Translations under genes and position numbers: made by a program | DNA from: an uncultured Oscillospiraceae bacterium | GTDB lineage: Bacteria; Bacillota; Clostridia; Oscillospirales; Oscillospiraceae | Length of the DNA: 36,549 bases | Reading direction: 5' to 3' | NCBI GenBank assembly: GCA_947589225.1 | Contig: CANQBC010000021.1 | Location: forward strand, 1 to 36,549 | The notes under the pieces: model-generated | What the model was told of the DNA's origin: nothing | Seen by the model: only the letters and a program-made list of their open reading frames with translations | Databases searched by the model: none | Shown here: in pieces, positions 5,419-36,457 of the stretch | Position numbering within the stretch: position 1 is the first letter of the stretch | Layout of the letters: the number at the start of each line of letters is the position of its first letter

Positions 5419-5640
5419 TCACCGTCCATCGGTCAGACATCCCTCCGATTTTGCCTTGCTTTTAATGTATTTCCCGCTCTTGATTCTGGCGTCGGCGGGC
5501 TTCTCCGCGTCCTCCGGGATGATCCAACGGCTCCCTGCCCGTTGTGCGCCCGATATCCTGTTCTCATTGCAGAGGACGCCCACGCGCCGGGGAGACAGCC
5601 CCCATTTCTCTGCGGCTTCAAAGGTTAAAAGGTATCTCAT
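5419..5640 (-). CDS. Small helix-turn-helix DNA-binding protein
   Basis: A 73-residue basic protein beginning MRYLLTFEAAEKWGLSPRRV and continuing into an ISGAQRAGSRWIIPEDA stretch. This is the winged-helix pattern of excisionase/MerR-like small DNA-binding proteins often found in Clostridia mobile regions. Length is complete for this type. It has a modest AGAGGG site upstream of ATG 5640. Its neighbours are an AT-rich DinB-like gene and the XRE regulator, consistent with an accessory region. The regulatory target is unknown; excision control is possible but unproven since no integrase is adjacent. Confidence 0.7.
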   Translation of the reverse strand: MRYLLTFEAAEKWGLSPRRVGVLCNENRISGAQRAGSRWIIPEDAEKPADARIKSGKYIKSKAKSEGCLTDGR

Positions 5641-5703
5641 GGTTGCCCTCTTATTTCTCTTGCATCCTTATCACCAAAACAGAATTTGCAGTTATTTTTG
5701 CAG

Positions 5704-30276: not shown

Positions 30277-30355
30277 TTTCCAGAGAAAATCGGCAATTTG
30301 TAGAAAATGAACTGCAAACTTTGTGCAAGACAACAAAAATGAAGGAGGCTTGAAA

Positions 30356-31774
30356 GTGGAAGAAGAAAAACTGAACACCGGTCAGGGTGAGCAGATCACG
30401 AAGGATGAAGCCGTTACCCCCGCTGAACCTGGCCCAGACAAGAACGCCCCCGCCGCGCCGGAGCAGGGCGGCCCCGCCCAGCCGGAAACTGGCGATGCGG
30501 CGCTGAACAACGAGGCCGAGGCCGCCGTTCCCGGCGAAGAGGCCAAAGAGCCGGAAACTTCTATCCCCGGCACGGAGGAAAAAGCGCCGGAGGCCACCAC
30601 CCCGGAGGCGGACACCCACCCGGAGAACGTAGAGCAGAAACCGCTCCACCGGGGCCGTCCCCCCAAGAGTAAAGAGGGGCCGGAGGCTGGTAAGGGGGAC
30701 AAGGCCAAGAAAGACCGCCCGGCCAAGGATAAGACCACCCCGGCCAAGGGTAAGGCACCGCGAGACAAAGTGTCCCAAAGTAAGGCGGGCAAGACGGCCC
30801 CGGAACAGCCCGCCGCTCCCACCAAGACCGAGCCTGCCGCTCCTGCTGTGGATGTGCCCACCGAGCCCGCGCCCCCTCCCCGGCCTGTGGAGGAGCAGAA
30901 GATCGTCTATCTGAAGCTCTCCGAGCTGCACCCGTTCCACACGTTCCGGGAACACCCCTTCAAGGTGGTGGACGACAGCCCCCGGATGAAGGAGCTGGTG
31001 AGCTCCATCAAGGCCCAGGGCGTGTTTACCCCGGCCACCGTCCGCCCGGAAAAGGACGGCAACGGCTATGAGATCATCGCGGGCCACTGTCGTATGCGCG
31101 GCAGTGAGCTGGCCGGTCTGGAGGAACTGCCCTGCATCGTCCGGGATATGACCGACCATGAGGCCGTCCAGGAGATGAAGAACAGCAACAAGCAGCGCGG
31201 CGATCCCCTCCCCAGCGAGTTAGCCCGGCTCCTGGATCTGGAGGTGGAGGACATCAAGCACCAGGGCGGGCGGCTGAAAGGGGTTGCCGAGGGCGACATC
31301 GGCAAACGCTCCGTGGAGATCGTGGGCGCGGAACACGGCATGAACTATAAGAAAGTCATGCGGTATATCCGGCTCAACTCCCTTGTGCCGGAGCTGCTGG
31401 ATATGGCGGACGCGAAACGGATCGGCTTCATGCCCGCCGTGGAGCTGTCCTTCATCAAGCCCAAAAATCAGCGGTATATCGCCGTTTCCATCGAGGGCGA
31501 ACAGTCCTCCCCCTCCGTGGCCCAGGCCAAGCGGATGCGGGAGCTGGACAAGGACGGCAAGCTGACCCCGGACATCATCGACGGTATTCTGAGCGAAGAA
31601 AAGAAGGAGGTGGATCGCGTGATCATCACGACCGACGAGCTCAACAAGTATTTCGGCAAGGAGGCTACTCCCCGCCAGATGAAGGATCAGATCATGGCCC
31701 TGCTGGATCAGTGGAAGGAGCGCCAGCCCCAGGAGAAGGGCAAGGCCCCCAAGAGCGCCGAGAAAGATCGCTGA
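30356..31774 (+). CDS. ParB-family partition protein of a conjugative element
   Basis: A 472-residue protein. Residues 1-180 are low-complexity, rich in Pro, Ala, Glu and Lys, and predicted disordered. The ParB/sulfiredoxin-like domain (about 181-275) contains LSELHPFHTF, ELVSSIKAQGVFTPATVRP and IIAGHCRMRGSELAG (nucleotide-binding box). A helix-turn-helix/KorB-like region follows (about 280-345, YKKVMRYIRLNSLVPELL). The start is GTG 30356, with AAGGAGG 7 bases ahead. ParB proteins bind centromere-like sites to stabilise or silence DNA, or act as regulators. No parA gene is adjacent, which is unusual. Its 3' end is a terminator formed by one copy of the GGGACACTTTGTCCC-type palindrome. Confidence 0.88.
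   Translation: MEEEKLNTGQGEQITKDEAVTPAEPGPDKNAPAAPEQGGPAQPETGDAALNNEAEAAVPGEEAKEPETSIPGTEEKAPEATTPEADTHPENVEQKPLHRGRPPKSKEGPEAGKGDKAKKDRPAKDKTTPAKGKAPRDKVSQSKAGKTAPEQPAAPTKTEPAAPAVDVPTEPAPPPRPVEEQKIVYLKLSELHPFHTFREHPFKVVDDSPRMKELVSSIKAQGVFTPATVRPEKDGNGYEIIAGHCRMRGSELAGLEELPCIVRDMTDHEAVQEMKNSNKQRGDPLPSELARLLDLEVEDIKHQGGRLKGVAEGDIGKRSVEIVGAEHGMNYKKVMRYIRLNSLVPELLDMADAKRIGFMPAVELSFIKPKNQRYIAVSIEGEQSSPSVAQAKRMRELDKDGKLTPDIIDGILSEEKKEVDRVIITTDELNKYFGKEATPRQMKDQIMALLDQWKERQPQEKGKAPKSAEKDR
30762..30776 (-). repeat. Palindrome copy 1 (inside parB)
   Basis: GAGACAAAGTGTCCC is the reverse complement of GGGACACTTTGTCTC and belongs to the repeat set at 31779, 35102 and 36443. It lies inside the coding region of the disordered ParB linker. 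Confidence 0.6.
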
Positions 31775-35097: not shown

Positions 35098-35101
35098 CTT
35101 C

Positions 35102-35116
35102 GGGACACTTTGTCCC
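35102..35116 (+). repeat. Palindrome copy 3
   Basis: GGGACACTTTGTCCC: 6-bp arms GGGACA/TGTCCC around CTT, 5 bp after the stop of the SLH protein gene. No T-run follows, so it is not an obvious terminator. Confidence 0.75.
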
Positions 35117-35120
35117 AGGA

Positions 35121-35277
35121 GCTCTGGTGGTATATCCCCCGTCGCCGCCGCTTTCCCCGCACAGCCGGGAGTGGGCCGTCAAGGGTGCAACGCACCGCCG
35201 CAAGGCGGCTTGCCCTTGACGGTCTGCCCCGGCTGTGCTACTCCCCGGCGGGGCGACGGGGGTATATCCTCCAGAGC
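35121..35277. other. 157-bp nested inverted repeat (structured RNA or ssDNA element)
   Basis: Three nested stems are perfect or nearly so. The outer stem is GCTCTGG/CCAGAGC plus CCCCCGTCGCC (35136-35146)/GGCGACGGGGG (35252-35262), separated by a symmetric TATAT/TATAT internal loop. The middle stem is ACAGCCGGG (35161-35169)/CCCGGCTGT (35228-35236). The inner stem is CCGTCAAGGG (35176-35185)/CCCTTGACGG (35213-35222). At the tip, CCGCC-GCAA-GGCGG (35195-35208) closes with a GNRA tetraloop. No credible reading frame crosses it. It lies between the SLH gene and the DUF4406/ardA pair. It could be a structured RNA, an ssDNA promoter-like element or an origin; the identity is not recognised. Confidence 0.8.
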
Positions 35278-35314
35278 CGCCCCCTTGCCCCATGAATGGG
35301 GCAAGGGCGGGGGG
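35278..35314. terminator. Strong hairpin after the nested repeat
   Basis: CCCTTGCCCC (35282-35291) and GGGGCAAGGG (35298-35307) form a perfect 10-bp stem, extended outward by G/C runs with one bulge. GGTTAGGGTT follows, so there is no true T-run. Confidence 0.7.
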
Positions 35315-35320
35315 TTAGGG

Positions 35321-35349
35321 TTGAACGCTCCCATTCACCTTAAAATAAT
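35321..35349 (+). promoter_or_regulatory. Putative promoter for DUF4406-ardA
   Basis: TTGAAC (35321-35326) and AATAAT (35344-35349) with a 17-bp spacer lie 25 bp before the GTG start at 35374. Confidence 0.6.
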
Positions 35350-35373: not shown

Positions 35374-35724
35374 GTGAAGCGACCTTTGGCATACATCACC
35401 GCCGCGTGGTATGGCGGCGACAGCGAAAACGCGGAACAGGCCGCCCGGTACTGCCGGGCCGTGTATGAGGCGGGCTTTTCGCCCATCTGCCCCGCGCTGT
35501 ATCTCCCCCTGATCCTCAACGACGCGGTTCCCCAGGAGCACAAGGACGGGCTGGATATGGCCCGCGATCTGCTCCGGCGCTCCCATGTGCTGGTGGTGTG
35601 CGGGCATACCGTCACCGAGGCCATGAAGAATGACATCGCCGTGGCCCAGCGGCTGGGGATCACCGCCACCACCCTTGATGGCATCCTGACCGTCAAGGGG
35701 CAGGGCCGCCGGGCCCAGGGCTGA
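35374..35724 (+). CDS. DUF4406-like protein (nucleoside deoxyribosyltransferase fold)
   Basis: A 116-residue soluble protein. It begins RPLAYITAAWYGGDSENAEQ, continues with AGFSPICPALYLPLIL and ends with LLRRSHVLVVCGHTVTEAMK. This pattern (Rossmann-like first strand, an acidic turn and a strand with a late Glu) is typical of DUF4406/DUF7768-type proteins related to nucleoside 2-deoxyribosyltransferases. Such genes are frequent in conjugative elements and phages, perhaps acting in nucleotide metabolism or defence and anti-defence; no function is established. Start GTG 35374 has GGAGG 8 bases upstream. It is followed after 1 bp by ardA, so the two are translationally coupled. Confidence 0.72.
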   Translation: MKRPLAYITAAWYGGDSENAEQAARYCRAVYEAGFSPICPALYLPLILNDAVPQEHKDGLDMARDLLRRSHVLVVCGHTVTEAMKNDIAVAQRLGITATTLDGILTVKGQGRRAQG

Positions 35725-35725
35725 T

Positions 35726-36433
35726 ATGCCGTCCATATTTGAGGCGTACATCGCCAATGCCGGGAAGTACGCCGAGGGCCAGTCGGCTGAAAAGCTCCTG
35801 CGCTTTCCCACCACCAAGGAGGAGGTGCAGGAACTCTTGAAGGAGATCGGCGTGGACGGCATACGGTATCAGGAGATCTTTATCCCCGCCTTTGACGGGG
35901 ACGTGCTGGGCGTCTATGACCATCTGGACGAATACGCCAACCTGGACGAGCTGAACCATCTGGCCCGTCTGCTCTCGGAGCTCCCTCAATTTGAGCTGAT
36001 GACCTTTGAGGCGGTCATCAACAAGGGGGATCACACGTCCAGCGTGGCGGACTTGATCAATCTGGCGCAAAACCTGGACTGCTACGAGCTTTTCCCCGGC
36101 GTGGACAGCGATGAAACGCTGGGGCGTATCTACATTGAAGATATGGAGGCGCTGAACGTGCCGGAGAACGTGCTGCCCTACTTCGACTTTGAGGCATACG
36201 GGCGGGACGTGCGGCTGAACGAGGGCGGGCACTTCGCCCCCGGCGGCTATGTGCGGCGCAGCGGGGAGCCCTTCGTGGAACAGTACCACGGGATCGAGGA
36301 CATCCCCGACGAGCACAAGGTTTTCGCCTATCCCACGCTGCCCATCCGGGAGCAGATGGCGGCCTATCAGGAGGTGTCCGGCAAGGCCGCCCCGGAAAAG
36401 CCCGCGCCCGTCCAGGAGCACGACGACAGATAA
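35726..36433 (+). CDS. ardA: Antirestriction protein ArdA
   Basis: A 235-residue, very acidic protein of the ArdA family, a DNA mimic that inhibits type I restriction-modification enzymes when the element enters a new host. Recognisable pieces are FEAYIANAGKYAEGQ near the start, EIFIPAFDGDVLGVYDHLDEY in the first domain, and LDCYELFPGVDSDETLGRIY and LPYFDFEAYGRDVRLNEGG toward the end. The extra C-terminal tail is Pro/Glu-rich. The ATG lies 1 bp after the previous stop with a poor ribosome site, so it is translated by coupling. Its presence next to pcfB places this block in the transfer region of a conjugative element. Confidence 0.9.
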   Translation: MPSIFEAYIANAGKYAEGQSAEKLLRFPTTKEEVQELLKEIGVDGIRYQEIFIPAFDGDVLGVYDHLDEYANLDELNHLARLLSELPQFELMTFEAVINKGDHTSSVADLINLAQNLDCYELFPGVDSDETLGRIYIEDMEALNVPENVLPYFDFEAYGRDVRLNEGGHFAPGGYVRRSGEPFVEQYHGIEDIPDEHKVFAYPTLPIREQMAAYQEVSGKAAPEKPAPVQEHDDR

Positions 36434-36442
36434 CAGACCTTC

Positions 36443-36457
36443 GGGACACTTTGTCCC
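36443..36457 (+). repeat. Palindrome copy 4
   Basis: GGGACACTTTGTCCC, identical to copy 3, lies 9 bp after the ardA stop and just before the pcfB ribosome binding site. It has no T-run. Confidence 0.75.

Follow-up and report, generated by a model that had tools for sequence, protein, structure and literature searches.

A conserved hairpin unit beside ardA in conjugative elements of gut Clostridia: a candidate RNA-polymerase-primed single-strand origin

Introduction

We describe a conserved hairpin unit just upstream of a DUF7768–ardA gene pair in an ICE family of gut Clostridia and propose, with moderate confidence, that it is an RNA-polymerase-primed single-strand origin or single-stranded DNA (ssDNA) promoter, active on the + strand and similar in logic to Frpo and sso. 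The points in favour are its fold, conservation, covariation and strand preference, its −35/17/−10 layout, and the recurrence of its apical stem in mobile elements; rolling-circle Rep genes beside several members of a wider hairpin class are consistent with the proposal, and Frpo and sso1 of ICEBs1 would serve as its precedents. Our confidence is held at this level by the sense of relaxase genes in three genomes, the antisense position of rep genes, a poor −10, null results in the looser strand tests, and the derivation of the proposal from sequence and predicted folds.

The unit would be a cis-acting DNA site that comes into play once the + strand is single-stranded, as it presumably becomes during the life of the element. 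This strand would fold so that TTGACG (the −35) lies in the apical duplex and the 17-nt spacer is duplexed by the middle stem; an internal loop would hold the −10 open, and the outer stem would supply the duplex downstream of it. The result would amount to an imitation of an already melted promoter, to which host RNA polymerase carrying its main sigma factor would bind. Since the −35 is placed near the tip and the −10 closer to the base, the 5′ arm would act as template; a short RNA would head for the 5′ end of the single strand (leftward here) and would mainly prime the complementary strand in rolling-circle transfer or replication. A leftward RNA suits such a primer and does not suit direct expression of DUF7768–ardA from the + strand.

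RNA polymerase is already known to recognise ssDNA hairpins (Frpo and the ssos of Gram-positive bacteria). In literature on Frpo and other ssDNA promoters, leading regions, single-strand origins (TTGAC-bearing ones included), complementary-strand and M13 minus-strand origins, ICEs, and the Tn1549 oriT, no title or abstract opening described the present element; no literature joining DUF4406 with ArdA was found, and among the matches listed for the letters of the arms, the papers look unrelated by title. To our knowledge, no single-strand origin has been described for the gut Clostridia ICEs that bear this element. If the proposal is true, the unit offers a site at which the conversion of single strands to double-stranded DNA in these ICEs can be tested, a motif by which to search for similar origins in other places, and, for work on initiation, a promoter that is naturally pre-melted. 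Two easily confused jobs beside ardA, namely the priming of the second strand and early antirestriction expression, would also be told apart.

Architecture of the hairpin unit

The window analysed here is a stretch of 36,549 nucleotides from an uncultured Oscillospiraceae bacterium (assembly GCA_947589225.1, contig CANQBC010000021.1, positions 1–36,549). A preliminary description of this DNA reported a large nested inverted repeat at 35121–35277, and the folds bear it out: for region 35100–35300, none of 200 shuffles was as good as the native sequence, whether folded as + strand RNA (−131.8 kcal/mol, z −9.5), − strand RNA (z −7.3), or + strand DNA (z −9.0). The arms of the outer stem (35121–35146 and 35252–35277, + strand) are 26 nt long and 77% complementary, forming 7 + 11 bp round a TATAT/TATAT internal loop with mismatches beside it; this stem is backed by both fold and covariation. 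The middle stem, similarly backed, pairs 35159–35169 (the proposed template strand of the spacer) with 35228–35238 through 11 bp, and is joined through three G-T wobbles to the apical stem of 10 bp, which is predicted from the fold, has arms CCGTCAAGGG (35176–35185) and CCCTTGACGG (35213–35222), and recurs elsewhere. The stem lengths proposed earlier (18, 9, and 10 bp) therefore hold for the outer and apical stems, but not for the middle one. The tip hairpin with its GCAA loop is present at 35195–35208, although it varies among relatives, and the TTGACG noted in the inner arm lies at 35216–35221. The unit also extends past the repeat as first drawn: a second hairpin (35277–35312, 17-nt arms, 88% complementary), which covaries in relatives, is followed by a conserved, GGGTTGAAC-like tail (TTAGGGTTGAAC, 35315–35326), which brings the whole unit to 206 bases.

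The structure was not recognised in the preliminary description as a known RNA family, and no Rfam family matches it. A scan of the window gave no match reaching the gathering threshold (four sub-threshold matches only), and a scan of 18 other loci gave no match.

Copies, hosts, and gene neighbourhood

A profile search of collected loci (relatives, IMG/VR, GTDB contigs, and the window) yielded 28 distinct copies of the unit, including a second copy within the window's own genome that is 89% identical (contig C49). Titled hosts, among the matches listed, are Faecalibacterium, Dysosmobacter, Flavonifractor, Anaeromassilibacillus, Pseudoflavonifractor, a Candidatus Eisenbergiella, and Lachnospiraceae. 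One match was found in the plasmid collection, in a Subdoligranulum record without annotation, and no DNA similar to the unit was found in the phage collection. When 199 genomes were searched, 173 matched at E up to 1, nearly all through short chance matches, and the element or part of it was counted in 11: nine with matches below 1e-20 (G063, G102, G119, G110, G114, G106, G107, G142, and G128), G088 as a partial element, and G096 by reading.

The conjugative setting proposed earlier stands. In the window, a ParB_N-domain gene (30323–31774, + strand, assigned by domain match) lies upstream in the element, and the DUF7768 gene (35374–35724, + strand, E 3e-21; DUF4406 in the preliminary description) and ardA (35726–36433, + strand, E 3e-34) lie downstream; coupling-protein and TrbL genes are found in relatives. 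The order in G110 is ParB_N, hairpin, and coupling protein, and in G114 it is ParB_N, hairpin, ArdA, a coupling-protein gene split by a recombinase-bearing insertion, and TrbL. At that insertion (L086, 2046–4976), the coupling-protein gene is fused in frame to a serine-recombinase gene, and the inserted DNA also bears a MobA/MobL relaxase, an Eco47II-type restriction enzyme, and a methylase.

A DUF7768-like (DUF4406-like) start lies 3′ of the unit in 23 of the 28 copies, at 21–47 nt in 21 copies and at 99 and 155 nt in the other two. No such start was found downstream in the remaining five (L002, L016, L040, L131, and L182), one of which, L182, has a different small open frame in its place. 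Three DUF7768-less copies were inspected and are set among transporter, kinase, hydrolase, and similar genes, as could be the case for a replication or transfer site. Conversely, among 30 fetched ArdA loci the hairpin is present in four, all within the five that show a DUF7768-like start. The unit is thus tied to the DUF7768–ArdA module rather than to ArdA generally, and is able to stand alone.

A conventional promoter had also been proposed at 35321. Its sequence, TTGAAC-17-AATAAT, is present in the window, but the layout is not kept among relatives: in 21 of 28 copies the start codon follows the unit so closely that a promoter of this type could not be used in the same way. Separately, this ICE family has a short palindrome, GGGACACTTTGTCCC (TGGACATTTTGTCCA in a relative), that is repeated between its genes and also just 5′ of the hairpin unit (35102–35116 and 36443–36457 in the window; positions 318 and 921 in L038; positions 46, 2721, and 3529 in L090). 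No terminator-like site was found at the palindrome at 35102–35116.

Covariation and strand preference

Compensatory change, which the preliminary description had named as support for a conserved structure, exceeds expectation. Across 26 copies, 17 of 58 pairs changed on both sides, compared with 6.0 (sd 1.6) in shuffles and 5–6 with partners slid, the pair set being drawn from the same alignment minus three pairs; 97.1% of cells pair, and in the second hairpin 4 of 13 counted pairs changed on both sides. The alignment (A4) leaves out two of the 28 copies, L014, in which the outer 5′ arm is lost, and L116, in which the second hairpin is broken off. Because 13 of its 26 rows were retrieved through the exact apical core, conservation of the core in those rows is by construction. 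Conserved bases lie mainly in stems (GTCAAG/CTTGAC, and CCCCGTCGC with its partner), and the tip is variable.

The pairing is also asymmetric between strands. In the 18 rows below 90% identity there are 53 G-T cells to 10 A-C cells, and 26 to 0 at the junction of the middle and apical stems; moreover, in 19 of 20 copies the better fold is that of the + strand rather than of its complement, with both DNA and RNA parameters. From this G-T excess and the better folds, pairing appears to have been selected on the + strand, as either ssDNA or RNA.

The second of these forms would suggest a structured RNA leader of the DUF7768–ardA mRNA, made from double-stranded DNA and acting in regulation or stability. 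Its placement on the sense strand, its G-U tolerance and covariation, and the short distance to DUF7768 would all suit such a leader. We nevertheless regard it as unlikely, since the conserved bases are mainly in stems and the tip varies, an identical apical stem occurs in unrelated contexts, Rfam gives no match, and intact copies exist without DUF7768.

A promoter-like layout on the + strand

On the + strand of the 3′ arm, TTGACG is followed by a spacer of 17 nt (35222–35238), which contains the 3′ arm of the middle stem, and then by TACTCC (35239–35244), the proposed −10, which is unpaired in the window folds. In the folded layout, the conserved proposed −35 lies in the apical duplex, followed by a duplex spacer of 17 nt, a conserved unpaired TA (−12/−11), and the outer stem. 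In the window, 8 nt (RNA fold) to 9 nt (DNA fold) are unpaired from 35239 before pairing resumes. Immediately after the middle stem, T is present in 15 of 18 rows, A in 15 of 18, and both together in 12 of 18, compared with TA in only 4 of 18 at the matching place on the other strand. This anatomy looks like that of a promoter in folded ssDNA. Two points count against the single-strand origin here: TACTCC is a poor match to a −10, and the 8–9 open nucleotides of the window's own fold are fewer than the class average.

The closest comparisons are with Frpo/ssi promoters and sso1. In the leading regions of F and ColIb-P9, an ssDNA hairpin near establishment genes rebuilds a −35 and −10 for host RNA polymerase (PMC9849209; PMC11541004). 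The window hairpin is likewise predicted to rebuild a −35 and −10 at promoter spacing in its ssDNA fold, the −10 being a weak match, near establishment-type genes. It differs in that the active strand appears to be in the sense of the neighbouring genes, and in its host group, Clostridia; upstream of ssb in F, no TTGAC stem of the window type was found, and the stem motif is to that extent not shared with the Frpo of F. As for ICEBs1, sso1 is presented as a structured non-coding site whose folded promoter is recognised by RNA polymerase for the synthesis of a primer (PMC4595007). The window unit similarly consists of conserved non-coding stem-loops in a conjugative element, with a folded promoter and a function that are predicted; sso1, however, is described there as pBAA1-like with three stem-loops (PMC4595007), and the two are set side by side here by description.

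M13 provides a further lead, and a lead only. One intergenic hairpin of the phage (L228; M13 5616–5679) carries CCGTCAAG / CTTTACGG at its base, resembling the window's apical stem, but the motif sits at the stem base with no 17-nt duplex spacer after it in the fold. The complementary-strand origin of M13 is primed by RNA polymerase and lies in hairpins.

The preliminary description had suggested an Frpo-type promoter allowing early expression of ardA. A structured, covarying, non-Rfam element beside ardA with a layout like that of ssDNA promoters is what we find; the part of the idea that is not supported is that it drives ardA from the single strand, because the strand with the conserved −10 and the favoured pairing shares the sense of DUF7768–ardA and its RNA would run leftward, away from ardA. 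The remaining form of the idea is that the bottom strand is transferred and folds, and that RNA runs rightward into DUF7768–ardA before second-strand synthesis. It stays a rival because the bottom strand also holds TTGACG in duplex; in addition, 23 of 28 copies directly precede DUF7768, and in leading regions there is a known association of ssDNA promoters with ardA (PMC9849209; PMC11541004). Yet the place of the −10 is not conserved on that strand, its pairing is weaker, and five of 28 copies show no DUF7768, so that we judge this form rather unlikely.

The same hexamers could instead act in double-stranded DNA, with TTGACG-17-TACTCC as a rightward promoter into DUF7768 and the palindromes as binding sites for a regulator such as a ParB-like protein. 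The orientation toward DUF7768 would agree, as would the ParB_N gene, which G114 and G110, the two relatives scanned, have upstream just as the window does. A double-stranded operator, though, would not be expected to show covariation or one-sided wobbles, and in five Rep loci discussed below the same promoter would read into the 3′ end of rep; we hold this reading to be very improbable.

Relaxases and the direction of transfer

By the rule of F, the sense of the relaxase gene indicates which strand is transferred. PF03432 relaxases gave matches in 8 of the 11 genomes searched. The relaxase lies downstream of the hairpin on the same strand in G063 (31 kb), G106 (27 kb), and G107 (21 kb); a further one is found 15 kb upstream in G106, likewise on the same strand. 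In G096 the relaxase is 31 kb upstream on the same strand, in G114 it is 5 kb upstream on the other strand, and G110 has two downstream, one at about 20 kb on the other strand and one at 83 kb on the same strand. By analogy with F, the bottom strand would be the transferred one in G063, G106, and G107, given the sense of their relaxases, which counts against the + strand origin and, in these 3 of 11 genomes, fits the bottom-strand promoter for DUF7768–ardA.

The unit might alternatively be a nicking site, either an oriT formed by the second hairpin and tail or a rolling-circle double-strand origin in which CTTGA is cut by an HUH enzyme. A hairpin followed by a conserved tail would suit this, as would the Rep genes beside related hairpins, and some HUH Reps cut at CTTG/A. 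However, where the relaxase is downstream on the same strand it is 21–31 kb away, CTTGA lies in a long duplex and not in a loop, and the motif is common to elements with different neighbours. A nicking site is in our estimation very unlikely. An oriT was also sought upstream of the relaxase in six loci, where the short conserved block proved to be coding and no nick site was recognised; the gene preceding the relaxase resembles mobC, by eye, in two loci.

A wider class of apical-stem hairpins

Hairpins with arms CCGTCAAGGG/CCCTTGACGG separated by 15–45 nt occur in 28 IMG/VR stretches, compared with 0 and 3 for two control arms of the same composition, and in at least 119 genome stretches. By title, the matches listed include Clostridia, Actinomycetota, Alpha-, Beta-, and Gammaproteobacteria, Myxococcota, Acidobacteriota, Chloroflexi, Nitrospirota, and others. 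At least 147 class elements, among the matches listed, fall into 84 sequence clusters, and one element per cluster was folded with DNA parameters. The helix continues about 16–17 nt past the core and then opens, with pairing climbing again from offset 29; the steepest drop in pairing fell at offset 17 in 1491 of 2000 bootstraps. The helix ends at offsets 16–18 in 20 of 84 clusters versus 7 of 109 control hairpins, a comparison that rests on the shape of the profile because the control hairpins are weaker overall than the class. This tendency of the helix to end at the spacing between −35 and −10 speaks for the proposed origin.

With phylum groups assigned by hand from record titles, mean pairing at offsets 9–16 and 18–22, respectively, was 0.68 and 0.27 in Firmicutes (25 clusters), 0.80 and 0.38 in Proteobacteria/Myxococcota (24 clusters), 0.78 and 0.38 in Actinobacteria (13 clusters), 0.65 and 0.42 in other phyla (13 clusters), and 0.56 and 0.42 in untitled IMG/VR elements (9 clusters), the last showing no drop at 17. 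The peak of TA is at offset 17, where 17 of the 168 strands of the 84 clusters carry it; 16 of these 17 are from Firmicutes, several of whose families look related, and one is from elsewhere. The helix length is thus widespread, whereas the −10 is all but confined to Firmicutes. A second, unexplained TA peak is seen at offsets 27–29 (13, 12, and 10 of 168 strands), with TATG in several myxobacterial and acidobacterial copies.

It is conceivable, and we advance it tentatively, that these hairpins form a phylum-crossing class of ssDNA promoters in unrelated mobile elements, in which the folded strand would imitate the open complex of RNA polymerase and prime second-strand synthesis. Its members would then perhaps comprise gut Clostridia ICEs, rolling-circle elements whose Rep is G2P-like, and phage-like and plasmid elements, and its possible hallmarks would be an apical duplex containing TTGACGG, a duplexed spacer as long as that of a promoter, and a −10 region held open in an internal loop. 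We place this below the origin proposed for the unit itself, since outside Firmicutes the support consists of the stem and the helix length only. The concentration of TA in Firmicutes, the 64 of 84 helices that end elsewhere than offsets 16–18, and looser strand tests that were not significant also count against the single-strand origin. In one of these tests, fold energy and −10 score were not significantly correlated (Spearman 0.16, p 0.08).

Triloops of the cGNAg type were considered as a class feature, as they make up 68 of 132 C-closed triloops in apical loops compared with 10.6 in shuffles, yet they are given no weight because they are frequent in control hairpins too (44 of 113). The corresponding strand tests gave 8 of 8 under strict rules, a small sample, and 18 same versus 15 opposite under loose rules, which is not significant.

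A Pfam tally of 119 of the 182 nearest neighbour ORFs, from 107 loci, gave, among the 25 commonest families listed, REP_ORF2-G2P (a rolling-circle Rep family) in 8 of 119 proteins, five of them confirmed singly, and Resolvase in 7 of 119. In M13-like phages, the strand of the corresponding origin is the sense strand of rep. The TA-bearing strand is antisense to rep in all five confirmed loci, which by this analogy would argue against the single-strand origin. In one IMG/VR element (L059), a Zot protein and a reverse transcriptase lie beside the stem, whose flanks cluster with the Halomonas beimenensis chromosome (L126); a Fic protein, together with a weak portal match, is found in another, whose group includes contigs from Betaproteobacteria. 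No similar DNA was found in the phage collection for two other class members, and the plasmid collection gave no match for a Hutsoniella member. A Streptomyces member, by contrast, has likenesses in 14 plasmid records, and its copy is intergenic in all six inspected.

The wider class may be mixed. IS110 transposases are near the Streptomyces-type copy in two of the six inspected plasmid records and under the match in a seventh record; stem copies lie near IS110-family transposases on Skermanella and Sinorhizobium plasmids (L262, 4501–4569; L264, 4501–4532); the stem hairpin is possibly an IS110 target. Multiple CCGTCAAGGG stems are present in one Rhodospirillales MAG (L130, L149, L170, L198, and L199) and in one Myxococcales MAG (L110, L135, and L150), in both cases resembling a dispersed palindromic repeat.
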